Source: Taeniopygia guttata
Lineage: Eukaryota > Chordata > Aves > Passeriformes > Estrildidae
NCBI RefSeq assembly: GCF_048771995.1
Contig: NC_133024.1
Span: 129,001 to 193,000, forward strand
DNA length: 64,000 nucleotides
Direction of reading: 5' to 3'
The notes under the pieces are model-generated. The model saw nothing but the letters and a program-made list of their open reading frames with translations. It did no database searches and had not been told where the DNA came from. The position numbers were made by a program, and so were the translations under genes. Within the stretch, counting starts at the first letter, position 1. Each line of letters begins with the position of its first letter. Below are positions 3,170 to 64,000 of the stretch, one piece after another.

Positions 3170-3260
3170 CTTGATGCCTACTGGGATCTGCTTTAGGGCC
3201 AATTTTGCATGAAGCTCCTGGGAATTACTCATCTGTCTTCTTGCATGAGATGAAATATAT
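3170..3260 (-). CDS. Minus-strand exon candidate c (A1)
   Basis: Donor CATCAAG|GTAAGC is strong. Two acceptors are possible: CTAACAG (exon 91 bp) or GAAGACAG (exon 63 bp, 3170-3232). Only the shorter form joins in phase to the preceding exon d (ends at a codon boundary) and reads MSNSQELHAKLALKQIPVGIK up to the donor. The longer form is open in a different phase. Equivalents are 10355-10445, 17848-17938, 25337-25427, 42842-42932 and 60337-60427. Gene not recognised. Confidence 0.45.
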
Positions 3261-3342
3261 CTGTTAGAAGGTTGCAAAATGTGTTAGGATGCATTGCAGT
3301 GCTGTGCTCTTCCAGGACAGAGGCACAAAGTCTGATTCTTAC

Positions 3343-3446
3343 CGTAGCTGGGACTTTGGGGATTCCCAGAGCCATTTTCATGGCATCTAATTTTAGGTCC
3401 TTTTCAGACAGATTTGTAATGACAATTTGGTTTATAGCCCCTCCCT
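3343..3446 (-). CDS. Minus-strand exon candidate d (A1)
   Basis: 104 bp between a CTGGCACAG acceptor and an ACG|GTAAGA donor. One frame is open for 34 codons, with cores INQIVITNLSEKDLKLDAMK and ALGIPKVPAT. The charged helical segment looks like real protein and is unchanged in all six A units. Only 82 bp separate it from exon c, a short intron. The acceptor lies next to the GGAATTCC minisatellite. Confidence 0.55.
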
Positions 3447-3783
3447 CTGTGCCAGGGGCAGGAAAGTCTATCAAAGCAAATGAGGGAATTCTTCATCCTG
3501 GAATTCTGCAGGAATTCCCAATCCCGGAAATCCGGGAATTCCCCATCCTGGAATTCCGGGAGTTCTCAACATTGGAAATCTGGGAATTCTCAATCCTGGA
3601 ATTCCCCAGCCTGGAATTCCGGGAATTCCCGCTGCTCCCTTTGCCTTTGGAGCTGCCCTTCCTGGCAGAATTCCCAGATTTCCTGGCGGAATTCCCGGAT
3701 TTCCTGGCGGAATCCCCGGATTTCCCGCCGGGATTCCGGAATTTCCTGTCGGAATTCCCGGAATTCCGGGTTTTTTCCGGGAT

Positions 3784-4125: not shown

Positions 4126-4285
4126 CTGGGAATTTTGGGAATTTTTTTGGGTATTTTCTGGAGCTGCTCGGAGCCGTTTGGGCGGGGGGGTCCGGAATTC
4201 CCAGCGGGAGCTGAAAAAAAAAAAACGGGAATGAGGGAGGGGGGAGGGGCGGGAATTCCCAAATCCCAAAATTCCCAAATCCCCA

Positions 4286-5880
4286 ATTTAGGGGATTTTT
4301 GGGGAATATTTGGGTTTTTTTGGGATTTAGGGGATTTGGGTGTTTGGGATTTTGGGGATTTTTGGGGGATTTTTGGAGGATTTTGGGATTTAGGGGATTT
4401 TTGGGGTTTGGGATTTTGGATTTAGGGGATTTTTGGGGGATTTTTGGAGCATTTTGGGGTTTGGGGGGATTTAGGGGATTTTGGGGTTTGGGATTTGGGG
4501 ATTTTTGGAGGATTTTGGGGTTTGGGGGATTTTTGGGGGGGATATTTGGGGGGTTTTGGGGATTTGGGGGACTTCAGGGGGGATTTTTAGGGGATTTTGG
4601 GGGTTTGGGATCTGGGGGATTTTTGGGGTTTGGGATTTTGGAATTGAGGGGATTTTTGGGGAATATTTGGGTTTTTTTGGGATTTAGGGGATTTGGGTGT
4701 TTGGGATTTTGGGGATTTTTGGGGGATTTTTGGAGGATTTTGGGATTTAGGGGATTTTTGGAGTTTGGGATTTTGGATTTAGGGGATTTTTGGGGGATTT
4801 TTGGAGCATTTTGGGGTTTGGGGGGATTTAGGGGATTTTGGGGTTTGGGATTTGGGGATTTTTGGAGGATTTTGGGGTTTGGGGGATTTTTGGGGGGGAT
4901 ATTTGGGGGGTTTTGGGGATTTGGGGGACTTCAGGGGGGATTTTTAGGGGATTTTTGGGGTTTGGGATTTTGGAATTGAGGGGATTTTTGGGGAATATTT
5001 GGGGTTTTTGGGGATGTAGGGGATTTGGGTGTTTGGGATTTTGGGGATTTTTGGGGGATTTTTGGAGGATTTTGGGATTTAGGGGATTTTAGGGGTTTGG
5101 GATTTTGGATTTAGGGGATTTTTGGGGGATTTTTGGAGCATTTTGGGGTTTGGGGGGATTTAGGGGATTTTGGGGTTTGGGATTTGGGGATTTTTGGAGG
5201 ATTTTGGGGTTTGGGGGATTTTTGGGGGGGATATTTGGGGGGTTTTGGGGATTTGGGGGACTTCAGGGGGGATTTTTAGGGGATTTTGGGGGTTTGGGAT
5301 CTGGGGGATTTTTGGGGTTTGGGATTTTGGAATTGAGGGGATTTTTGGGGAATATTTGGGGTTTTTGGGGATGTAGGGGATTTGGGGGTTTGGGATTTTG
5401 GGGATTTTTGGGGGATTTTTGGAGGATTTTGGGATTTAGGGGATTTTTGGGGTTTGGGATTTTGGATTTAGGGGATTTTTGGGGGATTTTTGGAGCATTT
5501 TGGGGTTTGGGGGGATTTAGGGGATTTTGGGGTTTGGGATTTGGGGATTTTTGGAGGATTTTGGGGTTTGGGGGATTTTTGGGGGGGATATTTGGGGGGT
5601 TTTGGGGATTTGGGGGACTTCAGGGGGGATTTTTAGGGGATTTTTGGGGTTTGGGATTTTGGAATTGAGGGGATTTTTGGGGAATATTTGGGGGTTTTGG
5701 GGATGTAGGGGATTTGGGGGTTTGGGATTTGGGGATTTTTGGAGGATTTTGGGGTTTTGGGTTTTTTTGAGGTCTAGTGTTTTTTGGGGGGGTTTGGGGG
5801 GGGGGTTGGGAATTTGAAATTTAGGGGATTTTTGGGGGATGTTTGAGGTTTGGGGGGATTTTTGGGGGATTTGGGGTTTC
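4286..5880 (+). repeat. G-rich minisatellite with 357-bp higher-order repeat (A1)
   Basis: Runs of GGGGATTTTTGGGG-like text with plus-strand G-tracts of three to eight. The same variant order recurs at 4481, 4838, 5170 and 5527 (spacings 357, 332, 357), a higher-order repeat. The density of G-tracts makes G-quadruplex formation on the plus strand likely. Because 357 is divisible by three, glycine/phenylalanine/tryptophan-rich open frames run through it; I do not regard these as proteins. Confidence 0.92.
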
Positions 5881-5888
5881 AGGCTCAC

Positions 5889-5948
5889 CCGGGCGGGTCC
5901 CGGCTCCGTTTCGAGGCGGTTCCGGAGCTGCTGCGGATCCGGGAGAGG
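5889..5948 (-). CDS. Minus-strand exon candidate g (A1)
   Basis: 60 bp between a CCCTGCTCAG acceptor and a CCCGG|GTGAGC donor, exactly 20 codons at phase 0 (PLPDPQQLRNRLETEPGPAR). It is the only ordinary sequence between the G-rich and C-rich blocks and the exon candidate nearest the CpG island, so it may be an early exon of the minus-strand gene. Phase 0 fits islands f and e. Equivalents are 13128-13187, 20622-20681, 27721-27780, 45226-45285 and 63079-63138. Gene not recognised. Confidence 0.45.
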
Positions 5949-5976
5949 CTGAGCAGGGCCGGGATCCCGGGAACCC

Positions 5977-6088
5977 GAACCCCAAATCCCCAAATCCCCA
6001 AAATCCCAAACCCCAAATTCCCAAATCCCCAAAACCCCCCAAACTCCCAAAACACCAAATTTCCAAAAATCCCAAACCCCCAAAAAAC
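5977..6088 (-). repeat. C-rich block, inverted version of the G-rich minisatellite (A1)
   Basis: CCCCAAATCCCC-type text on the plus strand, the reverse complement of the 4286-5880 repeat, so the minisatellite changes polarity across exon g. Equivalents are about 13215-13326, 20709-20820, 27808-27920, 45313-45425 and 63166-63277. Confidence 0.85.
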
Positions 6089-6104
6089 AGATGGCAAGGT
6101 TCTC

Positions 6105-7045
6105 CCCCCCCCACGCAGTGCGCATGCGCGGTTCCCTTTGCAGTACGCCCGCTTTGCGCATGCGCACTGGAATTTCCGTACAGCATCATGGCCGCCTTCC
6201 TACAGCAGAGTTCCATTTTCCGTACAGTGTCATGGCCGCCCTGCGCATGCGCACTGGAATTTCCGTACAGCATCATGGCCGCCTTCCTACAGCACAGTTC
6301 CATTTTCCGTACAGTGTCATGGCCGCTAGGCGCATGCGCACTGGAAATTCCTCTTCTGCGCGCAAAGCACCAAGCTTGTTTCCTGACCAGAGCTTGTTTT
6401 TGAGGCTCGGGCCGCCCGAGCCGCCGCCGCCCCCCGCCCTGCGCTCACAGACACCGCCCCGCGCGCCGCTCGCCGCGCGCTCCCGCCCCGGCACCGGCGG
6501 CTGCAGTACCGCCCTCTGCCCACAATGGGGGCAGCGCTTTTCAAGCGAGCCCGCCACCAGGGACTCGCAAGATGGCGGCCCGTGGGGACCTGGACGGAGA
6601 GAGGCGTATTACGCCGATGCCCGTCGGCCCCCGCCAAAAACCCGCACGCTCGCGGTGCTGCTGACCCCACAGCCCCTGTGCACGGCACCGGAACCGCCGC
6701 GGAAAATCCCGTCGGGGGGCGCCGGCGTTGGGGACAATTCAGGCAGTGTAGAAAAAACAGACACGGGTCCTCGAATGCCGACGTCCTCTTTTTCGCGCCA
6801 TCTCGAGAAGGTCAAGCGAGTCCGCGACAAGCCACTCCCAAGATGGCGGCCGCGGGCGGCGGGCTGCAGTACCGCCCTCTGCCCACAGGGCGGCAGCACT
6901 GCCGCCCGCCACCGCCGGGGGCCGCCGCTCGCCTCGGGGCCGCGGGCGGGGCCGGCGGCAGAAAAGAACGGGCGCGATGCCCTCCGGAACCTGCCCTGCA
7001 GCAAATGCCCCAAAACATCCCGCGCGGAAAAGAACGCCAGCAAAA
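6105..7045. promoter_or_regulatory. CpG island with NRF1-type repeat and CTCF/YY1 module (A1)
   Basis: Two parts. The left part (6120-6345) is an 87-bp tandem repeat, each period carrying the palindrome GCGCATGCGC (6120, 6156, 6243, 6330), the NRF1 consensus. The right part holds a CTCF-like site (6501-6536: upstream TGCAGTACC plus a GGGGGCAG core), a perfect AAGATGGCGGC YY1-type site (6569), a second YY1-type site (6840) and a second CTCF-like site (6864-6898). Such islands are typically bidirectional TATA-less promoters. Minus-strand exons g to a lie downstream on one side, the next unit's plus-strand exon on the other. A 30-codon ATG frame starts inside the first YY1 site. Confidence 0.75.
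6571..6663 (+). CDS. Conserved 30-codon small ORF in the module
   Basis: ATG in good Kozak context (A at -3, G at +4) inside the first YY1-type site; starts MAARGDLDGERRIT and ends at TGA after 30 codons. It is kept in every complete module (A and B), with a Pro-to-Ser change in A2/A3. Conservation is uninformative because the whole module is near-identical, so it may be a leader ORF or chance. Confidence 0.2.
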
Positions 7046-7690
7046 AACCCCTGCCTCTAACCCAACAGGAACCAAAAGCAAAAACCTTCTCTTTTAAACT
7101 GCATTTCAAGCTCTTTTATTTTTATATTTTTCATATTTATATTCACATTCGGATTTATAACGTATATTGATGTGTAATTGTATTTTTATAATTTCTCACA
7201 TTTATTCCTTTATTACAATTTATATTTTTATGCATTGCTTAATACATTGCTTACATATTTCTATAGATAGATTTCTATTTCTAAAAGGTTTCTATTGCTT
7301 AAAATAAACCCCTGCCTCTATCCAAGTAAAAATCTTTTAAAAACCCCTTTTCTTTTAAACTGCGTTTAAATTTATCTCTATATTTCGCATTTATATTCAA
7401 ATTTACGTTTAAAATGTAGATTGATGTATGGTGTTATATGAAAGTATAAAATAGAAATGAAAATAAATATTCAGAAGAGATAGAATAGAAAAATCTCTGC
7501 ATACATTGAATATATATTTCTATATTTAGAATGATATCAAAATAAAAGGTATATTCATTTTTCTTCCATTAAAACCCTGCCTCTAACCAAATAAAAAGCA
7601 AAAAAAAAGCCCCTTCTTTAAACGATACTTGAATATTTATATATTGTTTTCATCATTATAGTCACATTTGCATTTCTACTTTATAGTGAC
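7046..7690. repeat. AT-rich 265-bp tandem repeat block, A1/A2 junction
   Basis: Three diverged copies of the roughly 265-bp AT-rich repeat, starting near 7048, 7310 and 7575, spanning the end of the CpG module and the start of A2. Confidence 0.7.
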
Positions 7691-9131: not shown

Positions 9132-9339
9132 CACAGCACAGCATGGCCTCGTGGAGCTTGAAAAGCAGCAGTGGTTTTTATCACCATGGTGCAACGGAGA
9201 GAAGACTTCAGAGCATTTTCTGGGAACGCCACATACAGTTATATTACACTTGCAGAATTGTCTGGCTATTGTGTCTCCTAAGTCACACAGTGGACTACAA
9301 ACAGTGCTGCTTCAGGGAAACTCTCTACAACCACTGAAA
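9132..9339 (+). CDS. Plus-strand exon candidate (A2)
   Basis: Same 208-bp exon as in A1 but open from acceptor to donor, entering at phase 2 (one base completes a codon) and leaving at phase 0. The strong CTTTCAG acceptor, the GTAAGT donor and a non-repetitive peptide make this the most convincing coding segment of the A unit. The gene is not recognised. Confidence 0.55.
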
Positions 9340-9700
9340 GTAAGTCACTAACTCTGTTAGAGCAGGCAATGGACTCACATGTTCACAAAAACTGACTACA
9401 CATGCTAAAGCCAGACGCTTTGTAGGTAAATGAGAAACACCTCTGGTTTGGGGCCCATCCCTCAGGCAGCAGGTTTTTTTTGCATGGACAGGATGATTAC
9501 TACTTGCGGGGCTATATGAAACATTTACCTTTTTATCCAAGTTATGAAAGAATAGCTTTGAAAAGCACAGTAATCCAAGGCCAAAAAGACAGGCAGACAA
9601 ATGGACAGATTTCAGCCACTCGTTTGGTTTTCTTGGCGAGAGCTTTTTGCTCTTCCAAGGGCTGACCTTATGCATTTGCCAGGTCTGGATGATCCACTTG

Positions 9701-9735
<35 letters not shown>

Positions 9736-10527
9736 TTAAAGGAAATTTCAACAGCAGACTCTTCTGGAGGTGTCTTCTGTCAATCTCCAGCTTCCCACAG
9801 GACTTGGTGCTTGTCTGGGGCTTTTGAGGAACAGCTCATAAATTGCTGCTATTCAGCCACTGGCAGTTGAATCCTGCTTTATTTAGTTTTTGGAATCTTG
9901 TAGTGGATCCTCCCTGCTTCCTTCCTCCAGTCCCTGCTCACATTTAGTTTCAGTTTCCTGGAGCTAAGAGTGTTGACCCCTTTAAAAGCAGCAGCAGCAG
10001 CAAGAAAACCACAAAGCAAGAAAACCCTGTCCTGACCATAAATGTTGTACCCTCTGCATAGAGAGAAACTCCACCAACTTTTCAGGAAGAAGATGCAACA
10101 AACTCTTTTGCAGCATATCCTGCTATGACAGCCTTGCAGCATACAGAATCCAGCCTAGCAAGGAAAAAATAATAAAAAAAAAAGTGTTGTGTTAAAAAAA
10201 ATGCACAAGGAAAAGGTGCTATTTTACATGGATCACAGTAAAGCCACAACAACCTAAGGGTTAATTTCTTCATGAGAATGTTTGAAGTCTAAATTTGAAA
10301 TCTGTTGTCAACTGCAGCTGGCTAAAATGGAAAGGGCTACATTTCTTTGCTTACCTTGATGCCTACTGGGATCTGCTTTAGGGCCAATTTTGCATGAAGC
10401 TCCTGGGAATTACTCATCTGTCTTCTTGCATGAGATGAAATATATCTGTTAGAAGGTTGCAAAATGTGTTAGGATGCATTGCAGTGCTGTGCTCTTCCAG
10501 GACAGAGGCACAAAGTCTGATTCTTAC

Positions 10528-10631
10528 CGTAGCTGGGACTTTGGGGATTCCCAGAGCCATTTTCATGGCATCTAATTTTAGGTCCTTTTCAGACAGATTT
10601 GTAATGACAATTTGGTTTATAGCCCCTCCCT
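10528..10631 (-). CDS. Minus-strand exon candidate d (A2)
   Basis: Same exon as in A1, intact splice signals and frame; exon c follows at 10355-10445. Confidence 0.52.
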
Positions 10632-10669
10632 CTGTGCCAGGGGCAGGAAAGTCTATCAAAGCAAATGAG

Positions 10670-11470
10670 GGAATTCTTCATCCTGGAATTCTGCAGGAAT
10701 TCCCAATCCCGGAAATCCGGGAATTCCCCATCCTGGAATTCCGGGAGTTCTCAACATTGGAAATCTGGGAATTCTCAATCCTGGAATTCCCCAGCCTGGA
10801 ATTCCGGGAATTCCCGCTGCTCCCTTTGCCTTTGGAGCTGCCCTTCCTGGCAGAATTCCCAGATTTCCTGGCGGAATTCCCGGATTTCCTGGCGGAATCC
10901 CCGGATTTCCCGCCGGGATTCCGGAATTTCCTGTCGGAATTCCCGGAATTCCGGGTTTTTTCCGGGATCTCTCCGTGCCCCAGCAGCTCCCGGAGCCGTT
11001 TCCGCTCCGGGGGGTCCCGGTAATTCCGGCTCCCGTAAAACTGAGCCACGGAAAGTTGGGAACGCACCGGGATTCCCGGAATTCCCGGATTTCCTGACAG
11101 AATTCCCGGATTTCCTGATGCCATTCCTGCATTTCCAGCCAGGAGTCCCGAATTTCCCGTTGGAATTCCTGAATTTCCAACTGGAATTCCCGAATTTCTT
11201 TCTGGAATTCCTGAATTTTCCGCCAGAATTCCTGAATTTCCTGTCGGAATTCCCGGATTTCCGGCGGGGATCTGCAGCCTCCGGGCCGGCGCCGCTTTCT
11301 CCACGATTTCCTGGGAATTTTGGGAATTTTTTTGGGTATTTTCTGGAGCTGCTCGGAGCCGTTTGGGCGGGGGGGTCCGGAATTCCCAGCGGGAGCTGAA
11401 AAAAAAAAAAACGGGAATGAGGGAGGGGGGAGGGGCGGGAATTCCCAAATCCCAAAATTCCCAAATCCCC
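10670..11470. repeat. GGAATTCC minisatellite (A2)
   Basis: As in A1; islands at 10969-11040 and 11272-11310. Confidence 0.88.
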
Positions 11471-13119
11471 AATTTAGGGGATTTTTGGGGAATATTTGGG
11501 TTTTTTTGGGATTTAGGGGATTTGGGTGTTTGGGATTTTGGGGATTTTTGGGGGATTTTTGGAGGATTTTGGGATTTAGGGGATTTTTGGGGTTTGGGAT
11601 TTTGGATTTAGGGGATTTTTGGGGGATTTTTGGAGCATTTTGGGGTTTGGGGGGATTTAGGGGATTTTGGGGTTTGGGATTTGGGGATTTTTGGAGGATT
11701 TTGGGGTTTGGGGGATTTTTGGGGGGGATATTTGGGGGGTTTTGGGGATTTGGGGGACTTCAGGGGGGATTTTTAGGGGATTTTGGGGGTTTGGGATCTG
11801 GGGGATTTTTGGGGTTTGGGATTTTGGAATTGAGGGGATTTTTGGGGAATATTTGGGTTTTTTGGGGATGTAGGGGATTTGGGTGTTTGGGATTTTGGGG
11901 ATTTTTGGGGGATTTTTGGAGGATTTTGGGATTTAGGGGATTTTTGGGGTTTGGGATTTTGGATTTAGGGGATTTTTGGGGGATTTTTGGAGCATTTTGG
12001 GGTTTGGGGGGATTTAGGGGATTTTGGGGTTTGGGATTTGGGGATTTTTGGAGGATTTGGGGGTTTGGGGGATTTTTGGGGGGGATATTTGGGGGGTTTT
12101 GGGGATTTGGGGGACTTCAGGGGGGATTTTTAGGGGATTTTGGGGGTTTGGGATCTGGGGGATTTTTGGGGTTTGGGATTTTGGAATTGAGGGGATTTTT
12201 GGGGAATATTTGGGGTTTTTGGGGATGTAGGGGATTTGGGTGTTTGGGATTTTGGGGATTTTTGGGGGATTTTTGGAGGATTTTGGGATTTAGGGGATTT
12301 TTGGGGTTTGGGATTTTGGATTTAGGGGATTTTTGGGGGATTTTTGGAGCATTTTGGGGTTTGGGGGGATTTAGGGGATTTTGGGGTTTGGGATTTGGGG
12401 ATTTTTGGAGGATTTTGGGGTTTGGGGGATTTTTGGGGGGGATATTTGGGGGGATTTTTGGGGATTTGGGGGACTTCAGGGGGGATTTTTAGGGGATTTT
12501 GGGGGTTTGGGATCTGGGGGATTTTTGGGGTTTGGGATTTTGGAATTGAGGGGATTTTTGGGGAATATTTGGGGTTTTTGGGGATGTAGGGGATTTGGGT
12601 GTTTGGGATTTTGGGGATTTTTGGGGGATTTTTGGAGGATTTTGGGATTTAGGGGATTTTAGGGGTTTGGGATTTTGGATTTAGGGGATTTTTGGGGGAT
12701 TTTTGGAGCATTTTGGGGTTTGGGGGGATTTAGGGGATTTTGGGGTTTGGGATTTGGGGATTTTTGGAGGATTTTGGGGTTTGGGGGATTTTTGGGGGGG
12801 ATATTTGGGGGGTTTTGGGGATTTGGGGGACTTCAGGGGGGATTTTTAGGGGATTTTGGGGGTTTGGGATCTGGGGGATTTTTGGGGTTTGGGATTTTGG
12901 AATTGAGGGGATTTTTGGGGAATATTTGGGGTTTTTGGGGATGTAGGGGATTTGGGGGTTTGGGATTTGGGGATTTTTGGAGGATTTTGGGGTTTTGGGT
13001 TTTTTTGAGGTCTAGTGTTTTTTGGGGGGGTTTGGGGGGGGGGTTTGGGAATTTGAAATTTAGGGGATTTTTGGGGGATGTTTGAGGTTTGGGGGGATTT
13101 TGGGGGGATTTGGGGTTTC
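11471..13119 (+). repeat. G-rich minisatellite, four higher-order repeats (A2)
   Basis: As in A1; anchors at 11667, 12024, 12381 and 12740 (357, 357, 359). Confidence 0.92.
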
Positions 13120-13127
13120 AGGCTCAC

Positions 13128-13187
13128 CCGGGCGGGTCCCGGCTCCGTTTCGAGGCGGTTCCGGAGCTGCTGCGGATCCGGGAGAGG
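13128..13187 (-). CDS. Minus-strand exon candidate g (A2)
   Basis: Same exon and splice signals as in A1. Confidence 0.42.
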
Positions 13188-13344
13188 CTGAGCAGGGCCG
13201 GGATCCCGGGAAGCCGAACCCCAAATCCCCAAATCCCCAAAATCCCAAACCCCAAATTCCCAAATCCCCAAAACCCCCCAAACTCCCAAAACACCAAATT
13301 TCCAAAAATCCCAAACCCCCAAAAAACAGATGGCAAGGTTCTCC

Positions 13345-14545
13345 CCCCCCACGCAGTGCGCATGCGCGGTTCCCTTTGCAGTACGCCCGCTTTGCGCATG
13401 CGCACTGGAATTTCCGTACAGCATAATGGCCGGCTTCCTACAGCAGAGTTCCATTTTCCGTACAGTGTCATGGCCGCCCAGCGCATGCGCACTGAAATTT
13501 CCGTACAGCATCATGGCCGCCTTCCTATAGCACAGTTCCATTTTCCGTACAGTGTCATGGCCGCCTTGCGCATGCGCAGTACCAGTTTCCGTTGCGGTGT
13601 CATGGCCGCTAGGCGCATGCGCACTGGGTTTTCCGTACAGCATCATGACCGCCTCCCTACAGCAGAGTTCCATTTTCCGTACACTGTCATGGCCGCCTTG
13701 CGCATGCGTAGTTTTATTTTCCCGCGCGGTGTCATGGCCGCTAAGCGCATGCGCACTGGAATTTCCGTACAGCATCATGGCCGCCTTCCTACAGCACAGT
13801 TCCATTTTCCGTACAGTGTCATGGCCGCTAGGCGCATGCGCACTGGAAATTCCTCTTCTGCGCGCAAAGCACCAAGCTTGTTTCCTGACCAGAGCTTGTT
13901 TTTGAGGCTCGGGCCGCCCGAGCCGCCGCCGCCCCCCGCCCTGCGCTCACAGACACCGCCCCGCGCGCCGCTCGCCGCGCGCTCCCGCCCCGGCACCGGC
14001 GGCTGCAGTACCGCCCTCTGCCCACAAGGCGGCAGCACTTTTCAAGCGAGCCCGCCACCAGGGACTCGCAAGATGGCGGCCCGTGGGGACCTGGACGGAG
14101 AGAGGCGTATTACGCCGATGCCCGTCGGCCCCCGCCAAAAATCCGCACGCTCGCGGTGCTGCTGACCCCACAGCCCCTGTGCACGGCACCGGAACCGCCG
14201 CGGAAAATCCCGTCGGGGGGCGCCGGCGTTGGGGACGATTCAGGCAGTGTAGAAAAAACAGACACGGGTCCTCGAATGCCGACGTCCTCTTTTTCGCGCC
14301 ATCTCGAGAAGGTCAAGCGAGTCCGCGACAAGCCACTCCCAAGATGGCGGCCGCGGGCGGCGGGCTGCAGTACCGCCCTCTGCCCACAGGGCGGCAGCAC
14401 TGCCGCCCGCCACCGCCGGGGGCCGCCGCTCGCCTCGGGGCCGCGGGCGGGGCCGGCGGCAGAAAAGAACGGGCGCGATGCCCTCCGGAACCTGCCCTGC
14501 AGCAAATGCCCCAAAACATCCCGCGCGGAAAAGAACGCCAGCAAA
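13345..14545. promoter_or_regulatory. CpG island, long form (A2)
   Basis: As in A1 but with eight NRF1-type positions (13358, 13394, 13481, 13568, 13613, 13700, 13745, 13832; the one at 13700 has a changed last base), spaced by 87- and 45-bp steps. CTCF-like sites at 14003-14038 (core AAGGCGGCAG) and 14365-14399; YY1-type sites at 14070 and 14341. Confidence 0.75.
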
Positions 14546-15195
14546 AAAACCCCCTGCCTCTAACCCAACAGGAACCAAAAGCAAAAACCTTCTCTTTTAA
14601 ACTGCATTTCAAGCTCTTTTATTTTTATATTTTTCATATTTATATTCACATTCGGATTTATAACGTATATTGATGTGTAATTGTATTTTTATAATTTCTC
14701 ACATTTATTCCTTTATTACAATTTATATTTTTATGCATTGCTTAATACATTGCTTACATATTTCTATAGATAGATTTCTATTTCTAAAAGGTTTCTATTG
14801 CTTAAAATAAACCCCTGCCTCTATCCAAGTAAAAATCTTTTAAAAACCCCTTTTCTTTTAAACTGCGTTTAAATTTATCTCTATATTTCGCATTTATATT
14901 CAAATTTACGTTTAAAATGTAGATTGATGTATGGTGTTATATGAAAGTATAAAATAGAAATGAAAATAAATATTCAGAAGAGATAGAATAGAAAAATCTC
15001 TGCATACATTGAATATATATTTCTATATTTAGAATGATATCAAAATAAAAGGTATATTCATTTTTCTTCCATTAAAACCCTGCCTCTAACCAAATAAAAA
15101 GCAAAAAAAAAGCCCCTTCTTTAAACGATACTTGAATATTTATATATTGTTTTCATCATTATAGTCACATTTGCATTTCTACTTTATAGTGACGT
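14546..15195. repeat. AT-rich 265-bp tandem repeat block, A2/A3 junction
   Basis: Same three-copy diverged AT-rich repeat as at the A1/A2 junction; no gene seen. Confidence 0.68.
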
Positions 15196-18963: not shown

Positions 18964-20613
18964 AATTTAGGGGATTTTTGGGGAATATTTGGGTTTTTTT
19001 GGGATTTAGGGGATTTGGGTGTTTGGGATTTTGGGGATTTTTGGGGGATTTTTGGAGGATTTTGGGATTTAGGGGATTTTTGGGGTTTGGGATTTTGGAT
19101 TTAGGGGATTTTTGGGGGATTTTTGGAGCATTTTGGGGTTTGGGGGGATTTAGGGGATTTTGGGGTTTGGGATTTGGGGATTTTTGGAGGATTTTGGGGT
19201 TTGGGGGATTTTTGGGGGGGATATTTGGGGGGTTTTGGGGATTTGGGGGACTTCAGGGGGGATTTTTAGGGGATTTTGGGGGTTTGGGATCTGGGGGATT
19301 TTTGGGGTTTGGGATTTTGGAATTGAGGGGATTTTTGGGGAATATTTGGGTTTTTTGGGGATGTAGGGGATTTGGGTGTTTGGGATTTTGGGGATTTTTG
19401 GGGGATTTTTGGAGGATTTTGGGATTTAGGGGATTTTTGGGGTTTGGGATTTTGGATTTAGGGGATTTTTGGGGGATTTTTGGAGCATTTTGGGGTTTGG
19501 GGGGATTTAGGGGATTTTGGGGTTTGGGATTTGGGGATTTTTGGAGGATTTGGGGGTTTGGGGGATTTTTGGGGGGGATATTTGGGGGGTTTTGGGGATT
19601 TGGGGGACTTCAGGGGGGATTTTTAGGGGATTTTGGGGGTTTGGGATCTGGGGGATTTTTGGGGTTTGGGATTTTGGAATTGAGGGGATTTTTGGGGAAT
19701 ATTTGGGGTTTTTGGGGATGTAGGGGATTTGGGTGTTTGGGATTTTGGGGATTTTTGGGGGATTTTTGGAGGATTTTGGGATTTAGGGGATTTTTGGGGT
19801 TTGGGATTTTGGATTTAGGGGATTTTTGGGGGATTTTTGGAGCATTTTGGGGTTTGGGGGGATTTAGGGGATTTTGGGGTTTGGGATTTGGGGATTTTTG
19901 GAGGATTTTGGGGTTTGGGGGATTTTTGGGGGGGATATTTGGGGGGATTTTTGGGGATTTGGGGGACTTCAGGGGGGATTTTTAGGGGATTTTGGGGGTT
20001 TGGGATCTGGGGGATTTTTGGGGTTTGGGATTTTGGAATTGAGGGGATTTTTGGGGAATATTTGGGGTTTTTGGGGATGTAGGGGATTTGGGTGTTTGGG
20101 ATTTTGGGGATTTTTGGGGGATTTTTGGAGGATTTTGGGATTTAGGGGATTTTAGGGGTTTGGGATTTTGGATTTAGGGGATTTTTGGGGGATTTTTGGA
20201 GCATTTTGGGGTTTGGGGGGATTTAGGGGATTTTGGGGTTTGGGATTTGGGGATTTTTGGAGGATTTTGGGGTTTGGGGGATTTTTGGGGGGGATATTTG
20301 GGGGGTTTTGGGGATTTGGGGGACTTCAGGGGGGATTTTTAGGGGATTTTGGGGGTTTGGGATCTGGGGGATTTTTGGGGTTTGGGATTTTGGAATTGAG
20401 GGGATTTTTGGGGAATATTTGGGGTTTTTGGGGATGTAGGGGATTTGGGGGTTTGGGATTTGGGGATTTTTGGAGGATTTTGGGGTTTTGGGTTTTTTTG
20501 AGGTCTAGTGTTTTTTGGGGGGGTTTGGGGGGGGGGGTTTGGGAATTTGAAATTTAGGGGATTTTTGGGGGATGTTTGAGGTTTGGGGGGATTTTGGGGG
20601 GATTTGGGGTTTC
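18964..20613 (+). repeat. G-rich minisatellite, four higher-order repeats (A3)
   Basis: As in A2; anchors at 19160, 19517, 19874 and 20233. Confidence 0.92.
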
Positions 20614-20621
20614 AGGCTCAC

Positions 20622-20681
20622 CCGGGCGGGTCCCGGCTCCGTTTCGAGGCGGTTCCGGAGCTGCTGCGGATCCGGGAGAGG
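20622..20681 (-). CDS. Minus-strand exon candidate g (A3)
   Basis: Same exon and splice signals as in A1. Confidence 0.42.
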
Positions 20682-20839
20682 CTGAGCAGGGCCGGGATCC
20701 CGGGAAGCCGAACCCCAAATCCCCAAATCCCCAAAATCCCAAACCCCAAATTCCCAAATCCCCAAAACCCCCCAAACTCCCAAAACACCAAATTTCCAAA
20801 AATCCCAAACCCCCAAAAAACAGATGGCAAGGTTCTCCC

Positions 20840-22040
20840 CCCCCACGCAGTGCGCATGCGCGGTTCCCTTTGCAGTACGCCCGCTTTGCGCATGCGCACT
20901 GGAATTTCCGTACAGCATAATGGCCGGCTTCCTACAGCAGAGTTCCATTTTCCGTACAGTGTCATGGCCGCCCAGCGCATGCGCACTGAAATTTCCGTAC
21001 AGCATCATGGCCGCCTTCCTATAGCACAGTTCCATTTTCCGTACAGTGTCATGGCCGCCTTGCGCATGCGCAGTACCAGTTTCCGTTGCGGTGTCATGGC
21101 CGCTAGGCGCATGCGCACTGGGTTTTCCGTACAGCATCATGACCGCCTCCCTACAGCAGAGTTCCATTTTCCGTACACTGTCATGGCCGCCTTGCGCATG
21201 CGTAGTTTTATTTTCCCGCGCGGTGTCATGGCCGCTAAGCGCATGCGCACTGGAATTTCCGTACAGCATCATGGCCGCCTTCCTACAGCACAGTTCCATT
21301 TTCCGTACAGTGTCATGGCCGCTAGGCGCATGCGCACTGGAAATTCCTCTTCTGCGCGCAAAGCACCAAGCTTGTTTCCTGACCAGAGCTTGTTTTTGAG
21401 GCTCGGGCCGCCCGAGCCGCCGCCGCCCCCCGCCCTGCGCTCACAGACACCGCCCCGCGCGCCGCTCGCCGCGCGCTCCCGCCCCGGCACCGGCGGCTGC
21501 AGTACCGCCCTCTGCCCACAAGGCGGCAGCACTTTTCAAGCGAGCCCGCCACCAGGGACTCGCAAGATGGCGGCCCGTGGGGACCTGGACGGAGAGAGGC
21601 GTATTACGCCGATGCCCGTCGGCCCCCGCCAAAAATCCGCACGCTCGCGGTGCTGCTGACCCCACAGCCCCTGTGCACGGCACCGGAACCGCCGCGGAAA
21701 ATCCCGTCGGGGGGCGCCGGCGTTGGGGACGATTCAGGCAGTGTAGAAAAAACAGACACGGGTCCTCGAATGCCGACGTCCTCTTTTTCGCGCCATCTCG
21801 AGAAGGTCAAGCGAGTCCGCGACAAGCCACTCCCAAGATGGCGGCCGCGGGCGGCGGGCTGCAGTACCGCCCTCTGCCCACAGGGCGGCAGCACTGCCGC
21901 CCGCCACCGCCGGGGGCCGCCGCTCGCCTCGGGGCCGCGGGCGGGGCCGGCGGCAGAAAAGAACGGGCGCGATGCCCTCCGGAACCTGCCCTGCAGCAAA
22001 TGCCCCAAAACATCCCGCGCGGAAAAGAACGCCAGCAAAA
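20840..22040. promoter_or_regulatory. CpG island, long form (A3)
   Basis: Same as A2. CTCF-like sites at 21497-21532 and 21859-21893; YY1-type sites at 21564 and 21835. Confidence 0.75.
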
Positions 22041-22690
22041 AAACCCCCTGCCTCTAACCCAACAGGAACCAAAAGCAAAAACCTTCTCTTTTAAACTGCA
22101 TTTCAAGCTCTTTTATTTTTATATTTTTCATATTTATATTCACATTCGGATTTATAACGTATATTGATGTGTAATTGTATTTTTATAATTTCTCACATTT
22201 ATTCCTTTATTACAATTTATATTTTTATGCATTGCTTAATACATTGCTTACATATTTCTATAGATAGATTTCTATTTCTAAAAGGTTTCTATTGCTTAAA
22301 ATAAACCCCTGCCTCTATCCAAGTAAAAATCTTTTAAAAACCCCTTTTCTTTTAAACTGCGTTTAAATTTATCTCTATATTTCGCATTTATATTCAAATT
22401 TACGTTTAAAATGTAGATTGATGTATGGTGTTATATGAAAGTATAAAATAGAAATGAAAATAAATATTCAGAAGAGATAGAATAGAAAAATCTCTGCATA
22501 CATTGAATATATATTTCTATATTTAGAATGATATCAAAATAAAAGGTATATTCATTTTTCTTCCATTAAAACCCTGCCTCTAACCAAATAAAAAGCAAAA
22601 AAAAAGCCCCTTCTTTAAACGATACTTGAATATTTATATATTGTTTTCATCATTATAGTCACATTTGCATTTCTACTTTATAGTGACGTA
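22040..22690. repeat. AT-rich 265-bp tandem repeat block, A3/A4 junction
   Basis: Same three-copy diverged AT-rich repeat; no gene seen. Confidence 0.68.
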
Positions 22691-26443: not shown

Positions 26444-27712
26444 ATTTAGGGGATTTTTGGGGAATATTTGGGTTTTTTTGGGATTTAGGGGATTTGGGTG
26501 TTTGGGATTTTGGGGATTTTTGGGGGATTTTTGGATTTAGGGGATTTTTGGGGTTTGGGATTTTGGATTTAGGGGATTTTTGGAGCATTTTGGGGTTTGG
26601 GGGGATTTAGGGGATTTTGGGGTTTGGGATTTGGGGATTTTTGGAGGATTTTGGGGTTTGGGGGATTTTTGGGGGGGATATTTGGGGGGTTTTGGGGATT
26701 TGGGGGACTTCAGGGGGGATTTTTAGGGGATTTTGGGGGTTTGGGATCTGGGGGATTTTTGGGGTTTGGGATTTTGGAATTGAGGGGATTTTTGGGGAAT
26801 ATTTGGGGTTTTTGGGGATGTAGGGGATTTGGGGGTTTGGGATTTTGGGGATTTTTGGGGGATTTTTGGAGGATTTTGGGATTTAGGGGATTTTTGGGGT
26901 TTGGGATTTTGGATTTAGGGGATTTTTGGGGGATTTTTGGAGCATTTTGGGGTTTGGGGGGATTTAGGGGATTTTGGGGTTTGGGATTTGGGGATTTTTG
27001 GAGGATTTTGGGGTTTGGGGGATTTTTGGGGGGGATATTTGGGGGGTTTTGGGGATTTGGGGGACTTCAGGGGGGATTTTTAGGGGATTTTGGGGGTTTG
27101 GGATCTGGGGGATTTTTGGGGTTTGGGATTTTGGAATTGAGGGGATTTTTGGGGAATATTTGGGGTTTTTGGGGATGCAGGGGATTTGGGGGTTTGGGAT
27201 TTTGGGGATTTTTGGGGGATTTTTGGAGGATTTTGGGATTTAGGGGATTTTTGGGGTTTGGGATTTTGGATTTAGGGGATTTTTGGGGGATTTTTGGAGC
27301 ATTTTGGGGTTTGGGGGGATTTAGGGGATTTTGGGGTTTGGGATTTGGGGATTTTTGGAGGATTTTGGGGTTTGGGGGATTTTTGAGGGGGATATTTGGG
27401 GGGTTTTGGGGATTTGGGGGACTTCAGGGGGGATTTTTAGGGGATTTTGGGGGTTTGGGATCTGGGGGATTTTTGGGGTTTGGGATTTTGGAATTGAGGG
27501 GATTTTTGGGGAATATTTGGGGTTTTTGGGGATGTAGGGGATTTGGGGGTTTGGGATTTTGGGGATTTTTGGAGGATTTTGGGGTTTTGGGTTTTTTTGA
27601 GGTCTAGTGTTTTTTGGGGGGGTTTGGGGGGGGGGGTTTGGGAATTTGAAATTTAGGGGATTTTTGGGGGATGTTTGAGGTTTAGGGGGATTTTTGGGGG
27701 ATTTGGGGTTTC
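26444..27712 (+). repeat. G-rich minisatellite, three higher-order repeats (A4)
   Basis: Anchors at 26617, 26974 and 27331; one 357-bp repeat fewer than A2/A3. Confidence 0.92.
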
Positions 27713-27720
27713 AGGCTCAC

Positions 27721-27780
27721 CCGGGCGGGTCCCGGCTCCGTTTCGAGGCGGTTCCGGAGCTGCTGCGGATCCGGGAGAGG
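27721..27780 (-). CDS. Minus-strand exon candidate g (A4)
   Basis: Same exon and splice signals as in A1. Confidence 0.42.
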
Positions 27781-27934
27781 CTGAGCAGGGCCGGGATCCC
27801 GGGAAGCCGAACCCCAAATCCCCAAATCCCCAAAATCCCAAACCCCAAATTCCCAAATCCCCAAAACCCCCCAAACTCCCAAAACACCAAATTTCCAAAA
27901 ATCCCAAACCCCCAAAAAACAGATGGCAAGGTTC

Positions 27935-28872
27935 TCCCCCCCCCACGCAGTGCGCATGCGCGGTTCCCTTTGCAGGACGCCCGCTTTGCGCATGCGCACT
28001 GGAATTTCCGTACAGCATAATGGCCGGCTTCCTACAGCAGAGTTCCATTTTCCGTACAGTGTCATGGCCGTCCTGCGCATGCGCACTGGAATTTCCGTAC
28101 AGCATCATGGCCGCCTTCCTACAGCAGAGTTCCATTTTCCGTACAGTGTCATGGCCGCTAGGCGCATGCGCACTGGAAATTCCTCTTCTGCGCGCAAAGC
28201 ACCAAGCTTGTTTCCTGACCAGAGCTTGTTTTTGAGGCTCGGGCCGCCCGAGCCGCCGCCGCCCCCCGCCCTGCGCTCACAGACACCGCCCCGCGCGCCG
28301 CTCGCCGCGCGCTCCCGCCCCGGCACCGGCGGCTGCAGTACCGCCCTCTGCCCACAATGGGGGCAGCGCTTTTCAAGCGAGCCCGCCACCAGGGACTCGC
28401 AAGATGGCGGCCCGTGGGGACCTGGACGGAGAGAGGCGTATTACGCCGATGCCCGTCGGCCCCCGCCAAAAACCCGCACGCTCGCGGTGCTGCTGACCCC
28501 ACAGCCCCTGTGCACGGCACCGGAACCGCCGCGGGAAATCCCGTCGGGGGGCGCCGGCGTTGGGGACGATTCAGGCAGTGTAGAAAAAACAGACACGGGT
28601 CCTCGAATGCCGACGTCCTCTTTTTCGCGCCATCTCGAGAAGGTCAAGCGAGTCCGCGACAAGCCACTCCCAAGATGGCGGCCGCGGGCGGCGGGCTGCA
28701 GTACCGCCCTCTGCCCACAGGGCGGCAGCACTGCCGCCCGCCACCGCCGGGGGCCGCCGCTCGCCTCGGGGCCGCGGGCGGGGCCGGCGGCAGAAAAGAA
28801 CGGGCGCGATGCCCTCCGGAACCTGCCCTGCAGCAAATGCCCCAAAACATCCCGCGCGGAAAAGAACGCCAG
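27935..28872. promoter_or_regulatory. CpG island, short form (A4)
   Basis: Four NRF1-type positions as in A1. CTCF-like sites at 28333-28368 (AATGGGGGCAG variant) and 28696-28730; YY1-type sites at 28401 and 28672. Confidence 0.75.
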
Positions 28873-29205
28873 CAAAAAAACCCCTGCCTCTAACCCAATA
28901 GGAACCAAAAGCAAAAACCTTCTCTTTTAAACTGCATTTCAAGCTCTTTTATTTTTATATTTTTCATATTTATATTCACATTCGGATTTATAACGTATAT
29001 TGATGTGTAATTGTATTTTTATAATTTCTTACATTTATTCCTATTATATTTTATATTTTTTCACATATCTTAATATATTGCTTATATATTTCTATAGTTA
29101 GATTTAGATTTCTAAAAGGTTTATATGGCTTCAAATAAACACCCTGCCCCTATCCAAGTAAAAATCTTTTTAAAAGCCCCTTTCTTTTATACTTAAAATA
29201 ACACC
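28870..29205. repeat. AT-rich repeat block, A4/B1 junction
   Basis: The first 265-bp repeat is A-like to about 29020. The second (CCCTGCCCCTATCC near 29142) is clearly diverged from its A counterpart, and after about 29205 the sequence no longer aligns with A. This marks the left edge of the B-specific DNA. The B2 equivalent is 46375-46710. Confidence 0.65.
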
Positions 29206-32200: not shown

Positions 32201-32345
32201 AATTTAACACCATAATTTAAAAATCTTGTAACAAAAGTATACATTTTAATTATATTATTACAATAATAATACTAATGATAACACCTTCTGTATGTTAATA
32301 CATGCAACAAATGCTTAACAAATCCACCAATAAATTTTTTTTTTC
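29206..32345. other. G-depleted AT-rich segment (B1)
   Basis: About 3.1 kb with no gene recognised. The plus strand is very poor in G relative to C (for example 3 G against 18 C in 31321-31380 and 3 G against 12 C in 30541-30600). Open frames are short. It ends abruptly at about 32346, where ordinary sequence begins. A single CCTAACCCTAAC stretch near 30860 is not a telomeric array. Not recognised as any known element. Confidence 0.7.
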
Positions 32346-37422: not shown

Positions 37423-37686
37423 TCCACTGGTAACCTTTGATTTCTTTCTCCTAAATACCTCAAGCTCACACATTCAAAGGGGATTCGTACCAGAAAGTCA
37501 TCATCAAGAACACAAAACTGCCTCGTATAAAGGATTCTCAGGACTCGGAAAAAGCTATGAAAACTCCATGGAAACCAGAATCCATAAAACAGGAAATCGA
37601 GTCCAATCTGTATTTACAAAATTACAACTGCCCAATCACACATATGCATACAGTCCCTCTGTGGCAAAGCAGATAAGCAGTCTCAC

Positions 37687-37864
37687 CAATAATTCCTCTA
37701 GCCTCAGCAGCACGGACCTCTCCACTTCTTGCTTGCCTTCATCTTTACTGCTGCTGTACATGGCAACTAACCCCTTTACGCAGGCTGAGAAGAGATGTCT
37801 CCTCCAGGAATGCAGCTCCTCTGAGTTTTTGAGCACCGTGGATATGGCATCTGCCACGGCCCAG
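37687..37864 (-). CDS. B gene exon candidate i
   Basis: 178 bp, acceptor CTCTCTGCAG, donor GTGAGA. The AG left by exon h plus C gives Ser, then 59 codons (WAVADAISTVLKNSEELHSW ... VLLRLEELL) to phase 0. The phase match with h supports a real exon pair. Confidence 0.65.
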
Positions 37865-38035
37865 CTGCAGAGAGATAGTTGTTGATTTTCTTATTAACAT
37901 TTTAACTTGGTTTTGTATATCTTAAAGATGTCTTGCTGCCAAAGTGCAAAGCAACAGATTCTCGGAGGAGAGGACGCTGTTAATGCTCCCATTCCTATCA
38001 CACTGATTCCCAGGACAAACTGAGCCCTGGGGGAG

Positions 38036-38060
38036 ACACACACACACACACACACACACG
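38036..38060 (+). repeat. CA microsatellite (B1)
   Basis: (CA)n beside the exon h donor; 10 bp longer than in B2 (about 55541-55555). One of the few differences between the two B units. Confidence 0.85.
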
Positions 38061-38068
38061 CTGCCCAC

Positions 38069-38298: not shown

Positions 38299-38582
38299 CT
38301 GTTAAACAACACACTAAACCTAATTTTTTTCTAATCCAGCCCCAGACCACTCAATGTCTAGGAAATGATGCTACAGCAGCTGCTAATCTGTTACAGAGAA
38401 GTGCTACACAGAGGCTCACTTCTTTACCCATCCTCTACTTCCCAGGGTCTGACAAGGCCTTATCACTGCTTGACCTCGTAGGCAGAGCTACAGCCCCATT
38501 CAGCCTGTTCCTGTCAGAACAACTGACATTTGTTTACAAACCAACAAAATCGTTATCCCTACCTAAATACACCCATAATGCC

Positions 38583-38723: not shown

Positions 38724-39555
38724 CCTTCCCCGGCGCTGCCGCGGAGCCGCCTTCACCGCTTCCCTTTTACTCACACACACCGCCCCGCTCGCCGCCGCCC
38801 CGCGCCCCTCCGGGCCCGTCTCGGTGGTAATTGGAGCCGCTCTTGCCACTTCCGCCACAACTCGGTGGTTTTTGGGCCGCTCTGGCCGCTTCCGCCCCGT
38901 CTCGGTGGTTTCTGTGGCCGCTCTTGCCGCTTCCGCCCCGTCTCGGTGGTTTTGGGGCCGCTCTGGCCCCCCCGCGCCGTCTCGGTGGTTTTCGGCCCGG
39001 CGCTGGCCGGGGAGCTGCAGTACCGCGCTCTGCCCACAAGGCGGCAGCACTTTTCAAGCGAGCCCGCCACCAGGGACTCGCAAGATGGCGGCCCGTGGGG
39101 ACCTGGACGGAGAGAGGCGTATTACGCCGATGCCCGTCGGCCCCCGCCAAAAACCCGCACGCTCGCGGTGCTGCTGACCCCACAGCCCCTGTGCACGGCA
39201 CCGGAACCGCCGCGGAAAATCCCGTCGGGGGGCGCCGGCGTTGGGGACAATTCAGGCAGTGTAGAAAAAACAGACACGGGTCCTCGAATGCCGACGTCCT
39301 CTTTTTCGCGCCATCTCGAGAAGGTCAAGCGAGTCCGCGACAAGCCACTCCCAAGATGGCGGCCGCGGGCGGCGGGCTGCAGTACCGCCCTCTGCCCACA
39401 GGGCGGCAGCACTGCCGCCCGCCACCGCCGGGGGCCGCCGCTCGCCTCGGGGCCGCGGGCGGGGCCGGCGGCAGAAAAGAACGGGCGCGATGCCCTCCGG
39501 AACCTGCCCTGCAGCAAATGCCCCAAAACATCCCGCGCGGAAAAGAACGCCAGCA
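38583..39555. promoter_or_regulatory. CpG island with ETS-type repeat and CTCF/YY1 module (B1)
   Basis: The right part from about 39010 is the A-unit module: CTCF-like sites at 39015-39050 and 39377-39411, YY1-type sites at 39082 and 39353. The left part is unrelated to A: five copies of a 40-bp repeat beginning GTCTCGGTGG (38818, 38859, 38899, 38940, 38979). Reverse-strand CGGAAGTG (38847-38854) and CGGAAGCG variants match ETS/GABPA-type sites. This is the likely start region for the minus-strand B gene. Confidence 0.72.
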
Positions 39556-45217: not shown

Positions 45218-45225
45218 AGGCTCAC

Positions 45226-45439: not shown

Positions 45440-46378
45440 TCCCCCCCCCACGCAGTGCGCATGCGCGGTTCCCTTTGCAGGACGCCCGCTTTGCGCATGC
45501 GCACTGGAATTTCCGTACAGCATAATGGCCGGCTTCCTACAGCAGAGTTCCATTTTCCGTACAGTGTCATGGCCGTCCTGCGCATGCGCACTGGAATTTC
45601 CGTACAGCATCATGGCCGCCTTCCTACAGCAGAGTTCCATTTTCCGTACAGTGTCATGGCCGCTAGGCGCATGCGCACTGGAAATTCCTCTTCTGCGCGC
45701 AAAGCACCAAGCTTGTTTCCTGACCAGAGCTTGTTTTTGAGGCTCGGGCCGCCCGAGCCGCCGCCGCCCCCCGCCCTGCGCTCACAGACACCGCCCCGCG
45801 CGCCGCTCGCCGCGCGCTCCCGCCCCGGCACCGGCGGCTGCAGTACCGCCCTCTGCCCACAATGGGGGCAGCGCTTTTCAAGCGAGCCCGCCACCAGGGA
45901 CTCGCAAGATGGCGGCCCGTGGGGACCTGGACGGAGAGAGGCGTATTACGCCGATGCCCGTCGGCCCCCGCCAAAAACCCGCACGCTCGCGGTGCTGCTG
46001 ACCCCACAGCCCCTGTGCACGGCACCGGAACCGCCGCGGGAAATCCCGTCGGGGGGCGCCGGCGTTGGGGACGATTCAGGCAGTGTAGAAAAAACAGACA
46101 CGGGTCCTCGAATGCCGACGTCCTCTTTTTCGCGCCATCTCGAGAAGGTCAAGCGAGTCCGCGACAAGCCACTCCCAAGATGGCGGCCGCGGGCGGCGGG
46201 CTGCAGTACCGCCCTCTGCCCACAGGGCGGCAGCACTGCCGCCCGCCACCGCCGGGGGCCGCCGCTCGCCTCGGGGCCGCGGGCGGGGCCGGCGGCAGAA
46301 AAGAACGGGCGCGATGCCCTCCGGAACCTGCCCTGCAGCAAATGCCCCAAAACATCCCGCGCGGAAAAGAACGCCAGC
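45440..46378. promoter_or_regulatory. CpG island, short form (A5)
   Basis: Same as A4. CTCF-like sites at 45838-45873 and 46201-46235; YY1-type sites at 45905 and 46177. Confidence 0.75.
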
Positions 46379-56077: not shown

Positions 56078-57050
56078 TCAACCCATTCCCAGGAGGGCGG
56101 CAGGAGGGGCGGGCGCAGCCCTGTTCCGACGCCGCTCCACCCAGGCCCGGGAGCGCCGCGACCGCGCCTCCGCCGCCCGCCGGTACCGGCCCCGCCGGGC
56201 CGCCCTCGCGGCTGCCATCCTTCCCCGGCGCTGCCGCGGAGCCGCCTTCACCGCTTCCCTTTTACTCACACACACCGCCCCGCTCGCCGCCGCCCCGCGC
56301 CCCTCCGGGCCCGTCTCGGTGGTAATTGGAGCCGCTCTTGCCACTTCCGCCACAACTCGGTGGTTTTTGGGCCGCTCTGGCCGCTTCCGCCCCGTCTCGG
56401 TGGTTTCTGTGGCCGCTCTTGCCGCTTCCGCCCCGTCTCGGTGGTTTTGGGGCCGCTCTGGCCCCCCCGCGCCGTCTCGGTGGTTTTCGGCCCGGCGCTG
56501 GCCGGGGAGCTGCAGTACCGCGCTCTGCCCACAAGGCGGCAGCACTTTTCAAGCGAGCCCGCCACCAGGGACTCGCAAGATGGCGGCCCGTGGGGACCTG
56601 GACGGAGAGAGGCGTATTACGCCGATGCCCGTCGGCCCCCGCCAAAAACCCGCACGCTCGCGGTGCTGCTGACCCCACAGCCCCTGTGCACGGCACCGGA
56701 ACCGCCGCGGAAAATCCCGTCGGGGGGCGCCGGCGTTGGGGACAATTCAGGCAGTGTAGAAAAAACAGACACGGGTCCTCGAATGCCGACGTCCTCTTTT
56801 TCGCGCCATCTCGAGAAGGTCAAGCGAGTCCGCGACAAGCCACTCCCAAGATGGCGGCCGCGGGCGGCGGGCTGCAGTACCGCCCTCTGCCCACAGGGCG
56901 GCAGCACTGCCGCCCGCCACCGCCGGGGGCCGCCGCTCGCCTCGGGGCCGCGGGCGGGGCCGGCGGCAGAAAAGAACGGGCGCGATGCCCTCCGGAACCT
57001 GCCCTGCAGCAAATGCCCCAAAACATCCCGCGCGGAAAAGAACGCCAGCA
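56078..57050. promoter_or_regulatory. CpG island with ETS-type repeat and CTCF/YY1 module (B2)
   Basis: Same as B1. CTCF-like sites at 56510-56545 and 56872-56906; YY1-type sites at 56577 and 56848. Confidence 0.72.
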
Positions 57051-63070: not shown

Positions 63071-63078
63071 AGGCTCAC

Positions 63079-63292: not shown

Positions 63293-64000
63293 TCCCCCCC
63301 CACGCAGTGCGCATGCGCGGTTCCCTTTGCAGTACGCCCGCTTTGCGCATGCGCACTGGAATTTCCGTACAGCATAATGGCCGGCTTCCTACAGCAGAGT
63401 TCCATTTTCCGTACAGTGTCATGGCCGCCCAGCGCATGCGCACTGAAATTTCCGTACAGCATCATGGCCGCCTTCCTATAGCACAGTTCCATTTTCCGTA
63501 CAGTGTCATGGCCGCCTTGCGCATGCGCAGTACCAGTTTCCGTTGCGGTGTCATGGCCGCTAGGCGCATGCGCACTGGGTTTTCCGTACAGCATCATGAC
63601 CGCCTCCCTACAGCAGAGTTCCATTTTCCGTACACTGTCATGGCCGCCTTGCGCATGCGTAGTTTTATTTTCCCGCGCGGTGTCATGGCCGCTAAGCGCA
63701 TGCGCACTGGAATTTCCGTACAGCATCATGGCCGCCTTCCTACAGCACAGTTCCATTTTCCGTACAGTGTCATGGCCGCTAGGCGCATGCGCACTGGAAA
63801 TTCCTCTTCTGCGCGCAAAGCACCAAGCTTGTTTCCTGACCAGAGCTTGTTTTTGAGGCTCGGGCCGCCCGAGCCGCCGCCGCCCCCCGCCCTGCGCTCA
63901 CAGACACCGCCCCGCGCGCCGCTCGCCGCGCGCTCCCGCCCCGGCACCGGCGGCTGCAGTACCGCCCTCTGCCCACAAGGCGGCAGCACTTTTCAAGCGA
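63293..64000. promoter_or_regulatory. CpG island, long form, cut by window end (A6)
   Basis: Eight NRF1-type positions as in A2/A3; the first CTCF-like site is at 63954-63989 and the window ends before the first YY1-type site. Confidence 0.72.

Follow-up and report, generated by a model that had tools for sequence, protein, structure and literature searches.

We report that the 64-kb stretch of DNA presented above (hereafter the window, numbered from its first letter) is, as judged from its sequence, a section of a macrosatellite in which the recurring functional element is an approximately 0.7-kb CpG-island, promoter-like module with CTCF-like and YY1 sites. The whole window is a direct tandem array with its units in the same orientation, and a first-pass annotation of this DNA had rightly counted seven full modules plus a partial eighth, all pointing one way; of the eighth, which starts at 63955, the window includes no more than the first site. 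Successive first CTCF-like sites (CTCF1) are 6.82-10.68 kb apart (in order 7.50, 7.49, 6.84, 10.68, 6.82, 10.67 and 7.44 kb). Macrosatellite arrays are, as a class, confined to one or two genomic sites. Cutting at CTCF1 gives seven whole units (U1 7502, U2 7494, U3 6836, U4 10682, U5 6823, U6 10672 and U7 7444 bp), preceded by a leading part and followed by the first 46 bp of U8; with units of 6.8-10.7 kb in one orientation the array lies within the size range of macrosatellites, 2 to >12 kb (PMC3218863; here and below, papers are cited for individual passages).

Two kinds of unit are present. The A kind (U1, U2, U3, U5 and U7) has longest mutual matches of 98.7-99.8% identity, and the leading part matches A units at 97.8-98.6%; the units with a B spacer, U4 and U6, are 99.9% identical across 10.7 kb. 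A higher-order pairing of units, 17.5 kb in length, seems to be repeated as U3+U4 and U5+U6. The modules are of three types: S (U1, U4 and U6), L (U2, U3 and U8) and B (U5 and U7, each closing a B spacer).

CTCF-like and YY1 sites of the modules

Along each of the seven complete modules, a CTCF-like site and a YY1 site are followed, after 260 bp, by a second YY1 site and a second CTCF-like site, every one of them on the + strand. The upstream CTCF block, TGCAGTACCGC[C/G]CTCTGCCCACA, occurs 15 times in the window, 15/15 on the + strand, and gave 0 matches in the viral contigs that were searched with it. The YY1 motif AAGATGGCGGC occurs 14 times, all on the + strand (0 copies on the minus strand of the window), with two copies in each of the seven complete modules. 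The proposal that these YY1 sites are perfect is borne out, all 14 reaching the maximum score of the YY1 matrix, 19.1 bits. Six further + strand YY1 matches (12.9-14.0 bits) lie outside the modules, all within B spacers, and no minus-strand match of at least 12 bits was found in the window.

With the CTCF matrix, 24 matches of at least 8 bits were found in the window, and the top 12 are the 12 intact module sites. CTCF1 is intact in five of the eight modules (14004, 21498, 39016, 56511 and 63955), where it has the best score of the window, 14.14 bits; the second site (CTCF2) is present in all seven complete modules and is weak, 9.41 bits. The annotated pairing of CTCF-like sites in every module stands for the site order and for CTCF2 (both 7/7) but not for CTCF1, which is broken in 3/8. 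At 6501-6536 the broken site reads CCACAATGGGGGCAG, one base too many; matrix scoring of this stretch fails (-4.9 bits, an unusable core) because CCACAATGGGGGCAGCG stands in place of CCACAAGGCGGCAGCA, and the core minus the extra T would reach 18.9 bits. The second site of the same module, 6865-6898, scores a weak 9.41 bits. Compared with the other copies, CTCF1 at 6502-6536, 28334-28368 and 45839-45873 has one extra base and two substitutions; the stretch is possibly a hot spot of change in a module that is otherwise nearly unchanged. Reading the CTCF block on the minus strand was also tried and dropped (3.6 or -8.5 bits).

An upstream element together with a core had been annotated at the CTCF-like sites. 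This holds for 12 of the 15, where the offset between the upstream 9-mer and the matrix start is 6 nt and the core scores at least 9.4 bits, but the other three upstream motifs are followed by a broken core. The criterion was a TGCA-type 9-mer with a core 5 or 6 nt away, counted to the matrix start. According to PMC10287918 the distance between upstream motif and core varies between 5 and 6 nt, the extended form being somewhat weaker, and the upstream motif weighs most where the strength of the CTCF core is intermediate. In the modules TGCAGTACC sits 9 nt ahead of CCA; in a published CTCF binding substrate it sits 8 nt ahead (PMC11194110).

Chance expectation was estimated from 500 dinucleotide shuffles each of an A stretch, one CpG island and a B stretch. 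A 14.1-bit core alone turned up in 47, 22 and 59 of the 500 shuffles, respectively, and the core by itself is therefore no evidence. The upstream motif TGCANTNCC followed after 5/6 nt by a position weight matrix score of at least 9.0 was observed 2, 2 and 3 times versus shuffle means of 0.0, 0.002 and 0.0, and AAGATGGCGGC 2, 2 and 4 times versus 0.002, 0.006 and 0.008. Because the copies are not independent, and one ancestral module explains all of them, the test covers one module and not fifteen sites.

All modules are on the + strand. The S-type modules, with a broken CTCF1, are those of U1 (6502..6898; CTCF1 6502-6536, YY1 6569-6579 and 6840-6850, CTCF2 6865-6898), U4 (28334..28730; YY1 28401 and 28672, CTCF2 28697) and U6 (45839..46235; YY1 45906 and 46177, CTCF2 46202). 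CTCF1 is intact in the L-type modules of U2 (14004..14399; CTCF1 14.14 bits, YY1 14070 and 14341, CTCF2 14366 with 9.41 bits), U3 (21498..21893; YY1 21564 and 21835, CTCF2 21860) and U8 (63955..64000, cut at the window end), as well as in the B-type modules of U5 (39016..39411; YY1 39082 and 39353, CTCF2 39378) and U7 (56511..56906; YY1 56577 and 56848, CTCF2 56873).

Homogenisation, CpG islands and other sequence content

U4 has an 860-bp segment in common with the A units (28334..29193), of which positions 1-695 have diverged by 0.4-0.9% and positions 696-860 by 11.6-12.8%. Specifically, U4 and U5, whose flanks are unlike on both sides, differ by 6/693 substitutions in the first 695 bp and by 19/164 in the next 165, and U4 and U1 by 3/694 in the module part and 21/164 just beyond it. 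Downstream of the common 860 bp no match between A and B spacers was found at E<=1e-3 (low-complexity filter on). Upstream of the module, U4 and U5 share a 40-bp match (87.5% identical), separated in U5 by a 40-bp repeat, and U5 has the same match with U1 and U2. A start of the A/B homology exactly at CTCF1 was ruled out; the close match starts ~2 bp upstream, with the diverged 40-bp match further up. The piece with CTCF1-YY1-YY1-CTCF2 is, in these alignments, far more alike than the homologous DNA on both sides, and, with hardly a base differing, gene conversion would be the simpler cause.

CpG islands were defined by a GC content of at least 0.55 and an observed/expected CpG ratio (o/e) of at least 0.65 across at least 500 bp. 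All eight modules lie in such islands, with an o/e of 0.88-0.99 over 1.05-1.72 kb (the eighth cut); that of U1 spans 5761..7210 (o/e 0.96) and the others 12991-14710, 20491-22200, 27591-29040, 38241-39720, 45091-46540, 55731-57210 and 62941-63990. Among the 106 non-module 500-bp bins the o/e is at most 0.30 in 72, intermediate in 22 and at least 0.65 in 12, and six further islands of 850-870 bp lie off the modules, near GGAATTCC minisatellites. The module o/e of 0.88-0.99 argues against long germline methylation, at least before the amplification.

Minisatellites of 44/87 bp precede six of the eight modules and hold 33 NRF1 cores (GCGCATGCGC) and 32 weaker YY1-like motifs (TCATGGCCGC); the matrix scan gives 10.1 bits at 10 places within them. 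They lie on the + strand upstream of U1 (6120..6351, with four copies of each motif), U2 (13358..13853, seven NRF1 cores), U3 (20852..21347, seven), U4 (27952..28183, four), U6 (45457..45688, four) and U8 (63309..63804, seven, with its end inferred from U3). The B modules (U5 and U7) have zero NRF1 cores and in their place a 40-bp repeat, which in U5 (38815..39009, ~5 copies) lies between the upstream promoter piece and CTCF1. A further, TTTTGGGGAT-type minisatellite of ~1.2-1.5 kb is present at 4285-5870 and at the equivalent places of other A spacers, with a GC skew that in some copies is as high as 0.95 per kb and with dense G-quadruplex patterns on the + strand. At 29181-32320 (3.1 kb, with a second copy ~17.5 kb on) the + strand has 4.9% G versus 18.4% C, a bias such as strand-specific G-to-A change would leave.

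Two exon-like open reading frames (ORFs) with splice phases that by eye seem compatible are present on the minus strand at 37639-38301 (and also in U6), pointing away from the B CpG island, and another, with splice-like borders by eye, is present on the minus strand at 10417-10677 and at the equivalent places of other A spacers (one copy at 3239-3480). Protein searches covered only selected single ORFs of the window. Among these, which include both exon-like sets and a small module ORF, no Pfam family was found at cut-off, the best match being EXS (E 0.0057, 16.4 bits versus 25 required) to a poly-F ORF at 9328-9735, and PDB gave nothing better than E 0.4. As to RNA genes, no Rfam family reached its gathering score in the window and ARAGORN (bacterial code) found no tRNA. 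Each of six avian CR1 3'-end patterns gave 0 matches; it is the look of the GGAATTCC and TTTTGGGGAT minisatellites that suggests a probable avian origin.

Possible roles of the array

Our leading, still tentative, reading is that the array consists of promoter modules with CTCF/YY1 sites facing one way, that conversion homogenises these modules, and that they act as cohesin stops and as promoters. In cells where methylation spares the CpG island, transcription would be driven by YY1 and NRF1 from the module, at its YY1 sites, and CTCF would occupy the module cores. One-way cohesin stops are proposed because all sites have one polarity; the array would then be a stack of such stops, giving a stripe towards higher coordinates, as well as many promoters, and methylation would close it. 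Its strength would depend on the copy number and on the mix of modules with an intact or a broken first site, and gene conversion centred on the module would keep the modules alike. As to polarity, convergent CTCF sites pair, and when Dxz4 is inverted its contacts turn to the opposite side (PMC6985041).

Several points weigh against this reading. The CTCF matrix (MA0139.1) is a rough guide, since an H19-type CTCF core scores just 2.2 bits with it. Three published CTCF sites, used as a yardstick, score 22.0-23.9 bits with the same matrix, compared with which the module cores are only moderate (14.1) or weak (9.4), and in three of the eight modules (6502, 28334 and 45839) the best + strand score of the broken CTCF1 is -4.9. 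Moreover, CpG richness is not limited to the modules (12/106 other bins at 0.65 or above). Among the five copies of the A kind, variation in the module is no lower than in the spacer (2 single-nucleotide polymorphisms (SNPs) in 510 bp vs 9 in 4205, p=0.34), and this test therefore gives no sign of purifying selection on the module. CTCF1 varies more than any other stretch (3 SNPs in 35 bp, p=1.3e-4 for a stretch chosen post hoc). The strong boundary suggested in the first-pass annotation is not supported for these predicted sites.

Nearly as likely is that an ordinary CTCF-YY1-NRF1 CpG-island promoter was tandemly amplified, with each copy doing normal promoter work and no special folding role. 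CpG-island promoters often have CTCF and YY1 paired (PMC4056453), which brings this explanation close behind, and any promoter island has a high CpG o/e. The promoter of the B unit might perhaps be bidirectional with a minus-strand gene: the exon-like ORFs at 37639-38301 lead away from the island, although they have neither a Pfam family at cut-off nor a PDB chain below E 0.4, and a minus-strand YY1 match of 10.7 bits is present at 38716, a weak one given that 6/8 minus-strand matches of at least 10 bits are in A spacers. A duplicated CTCF/YY1 pair of one polarity, on the other hand, is not required by an ordinary promoter. The two explanations are compatible, and the sole difference is whether the array folds the chromosome.

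We consider it unlikely that the array is a passive satellite, in which recent unequal exchange amplified a promoter-bearing segment by chance and which is now methylated and silent, its sites being relics. The identity of the longest matches among A units (98.7-99.8%) and between U4 and U6 (99.9%) means that the CpG pattern may date from before the amplification, and the loss of site 1 in 3/8 modules, as well as module variation that is not below that of the spacers, would fit such relics. Yet unit types with no other match at E<=1e-3 downstream share just this piece at <1% divergence, between stretches that have diverged by ~12%, and a random tract would seldom be picked; CTCF2 and both YY1 sites are, moreover, unbroken in 7/7 modules. 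Also doubtful is a bolder version of the leading reading, namely that a non-mammalian, probably avian macrosatellite reached the DXZ4 design independently: conversion would have carried a CpG-island promoter with one-way CTCF and YY1 pairs to two kinds of unit that are not related to each other, and the loss of CTCF1 in some modules would tune the stacked cohesin stops from which a long Hi-C stripe arises. An orthologue of DXZ4 outside placental mammals, or a dosage-linked counterpart on the Z or W chromosome, is very improbable: the layout, a paired CTCF/YY1 promoter element of common polarity, is DXZ4-like (PMC6985041), but the unit length is unlike (6.8-10.7 kb versus 3 kb), and no such or comparable array outside mammals is announced in the titles and abstract openings among the matches listed, most subscription papers being outside this scope.

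Comparison with known systems

New here are that the modules are CpG islands, that NRF1/YY1 minisatellites precede 6/8 of them, and that 695 bp from site 1 are common to two otherwise unrelated unit types. The pairing of sites is the same as in CTCF-YY1 co-bound CpG-island promoters; those, however, are scattered genome-wide with inconsistent motif spacing (PMC4056453), whereas here the pair is doubled in each module and the module is in tandem. The human 1q23.3 tRNA variable number tandem repeat, with a 7.3-kb unit, CTCF binding and a proposed role as a boundary (PMC4041453), is a further parallel; it differs in bearing tRNA genes, none of which were found in this window by ARAGORN, and YY1 occurs 0 times in the text of PMC4041453. 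CTCF and YY1 sites are likewise paired in the tandem repeats FIRRE R0 and ICCE (PMC6985041), which differ in lying within X-linked transcribed genes. FIRRE R0 contains YY1 motifs and binds CTCF despite lacking a canonical motif for it (PMC4820808), so that weak cores in an array have a precedent.

DXZ4, FIRRE and ICCE are described on the mammalian X, and one review regards it as unanswered whether the conservation of tandem CTCF/YY1 arrays has a basis other than X inactivation (PMC6985041). If it is true that the present lineage has no X inactivation, the array's own folding effect could be studied apart from that process, and the natural mix of intact and broken first sites would let CTCF dose be read inside one array.

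The DXZ4-like arrangement proposed at the outset holds for the layout, but not every module retains its pair of CTCF sites. DXZ4 itself is X-linked, near PLS3, with CTCF/YY1 occupancy and hypomethylation of one allele and with a Hi-C boundary. As in DXZ4/Dxz4, there is a long tandem array of macrosatellite size with a CpG-rich promoter-like element, CTCF and YY1 pairs and one CTCF polarity, and the promoter/CTCF piece stays alike while the remainder diverges (PMC6985041, PMC3218863); the CTCF region of DXZ4 is 74% identical between human and mouse over 100 bp (PMC3491370). Unlike DXZ4, the array here combines two kinds of unit that are unrelated and 6.8-10.7 kb long; its modules hold a pair of YY1 sites and one or two CTCF sites each, NRF1 arrays come in addition, and the spacers are mostly CpG-poor. 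The ~3-kb, GC-rich (61-65%) unit of primate DXZ4 is not matched (500-bp bins here range from 0.22 to 0.71 in GC content), and mouse Dxz4 is likewise not GC-rich (PMC3491370). By analogy, the likeness of the module to the DXZ4 promoter element may be called fair, at the level of layout.
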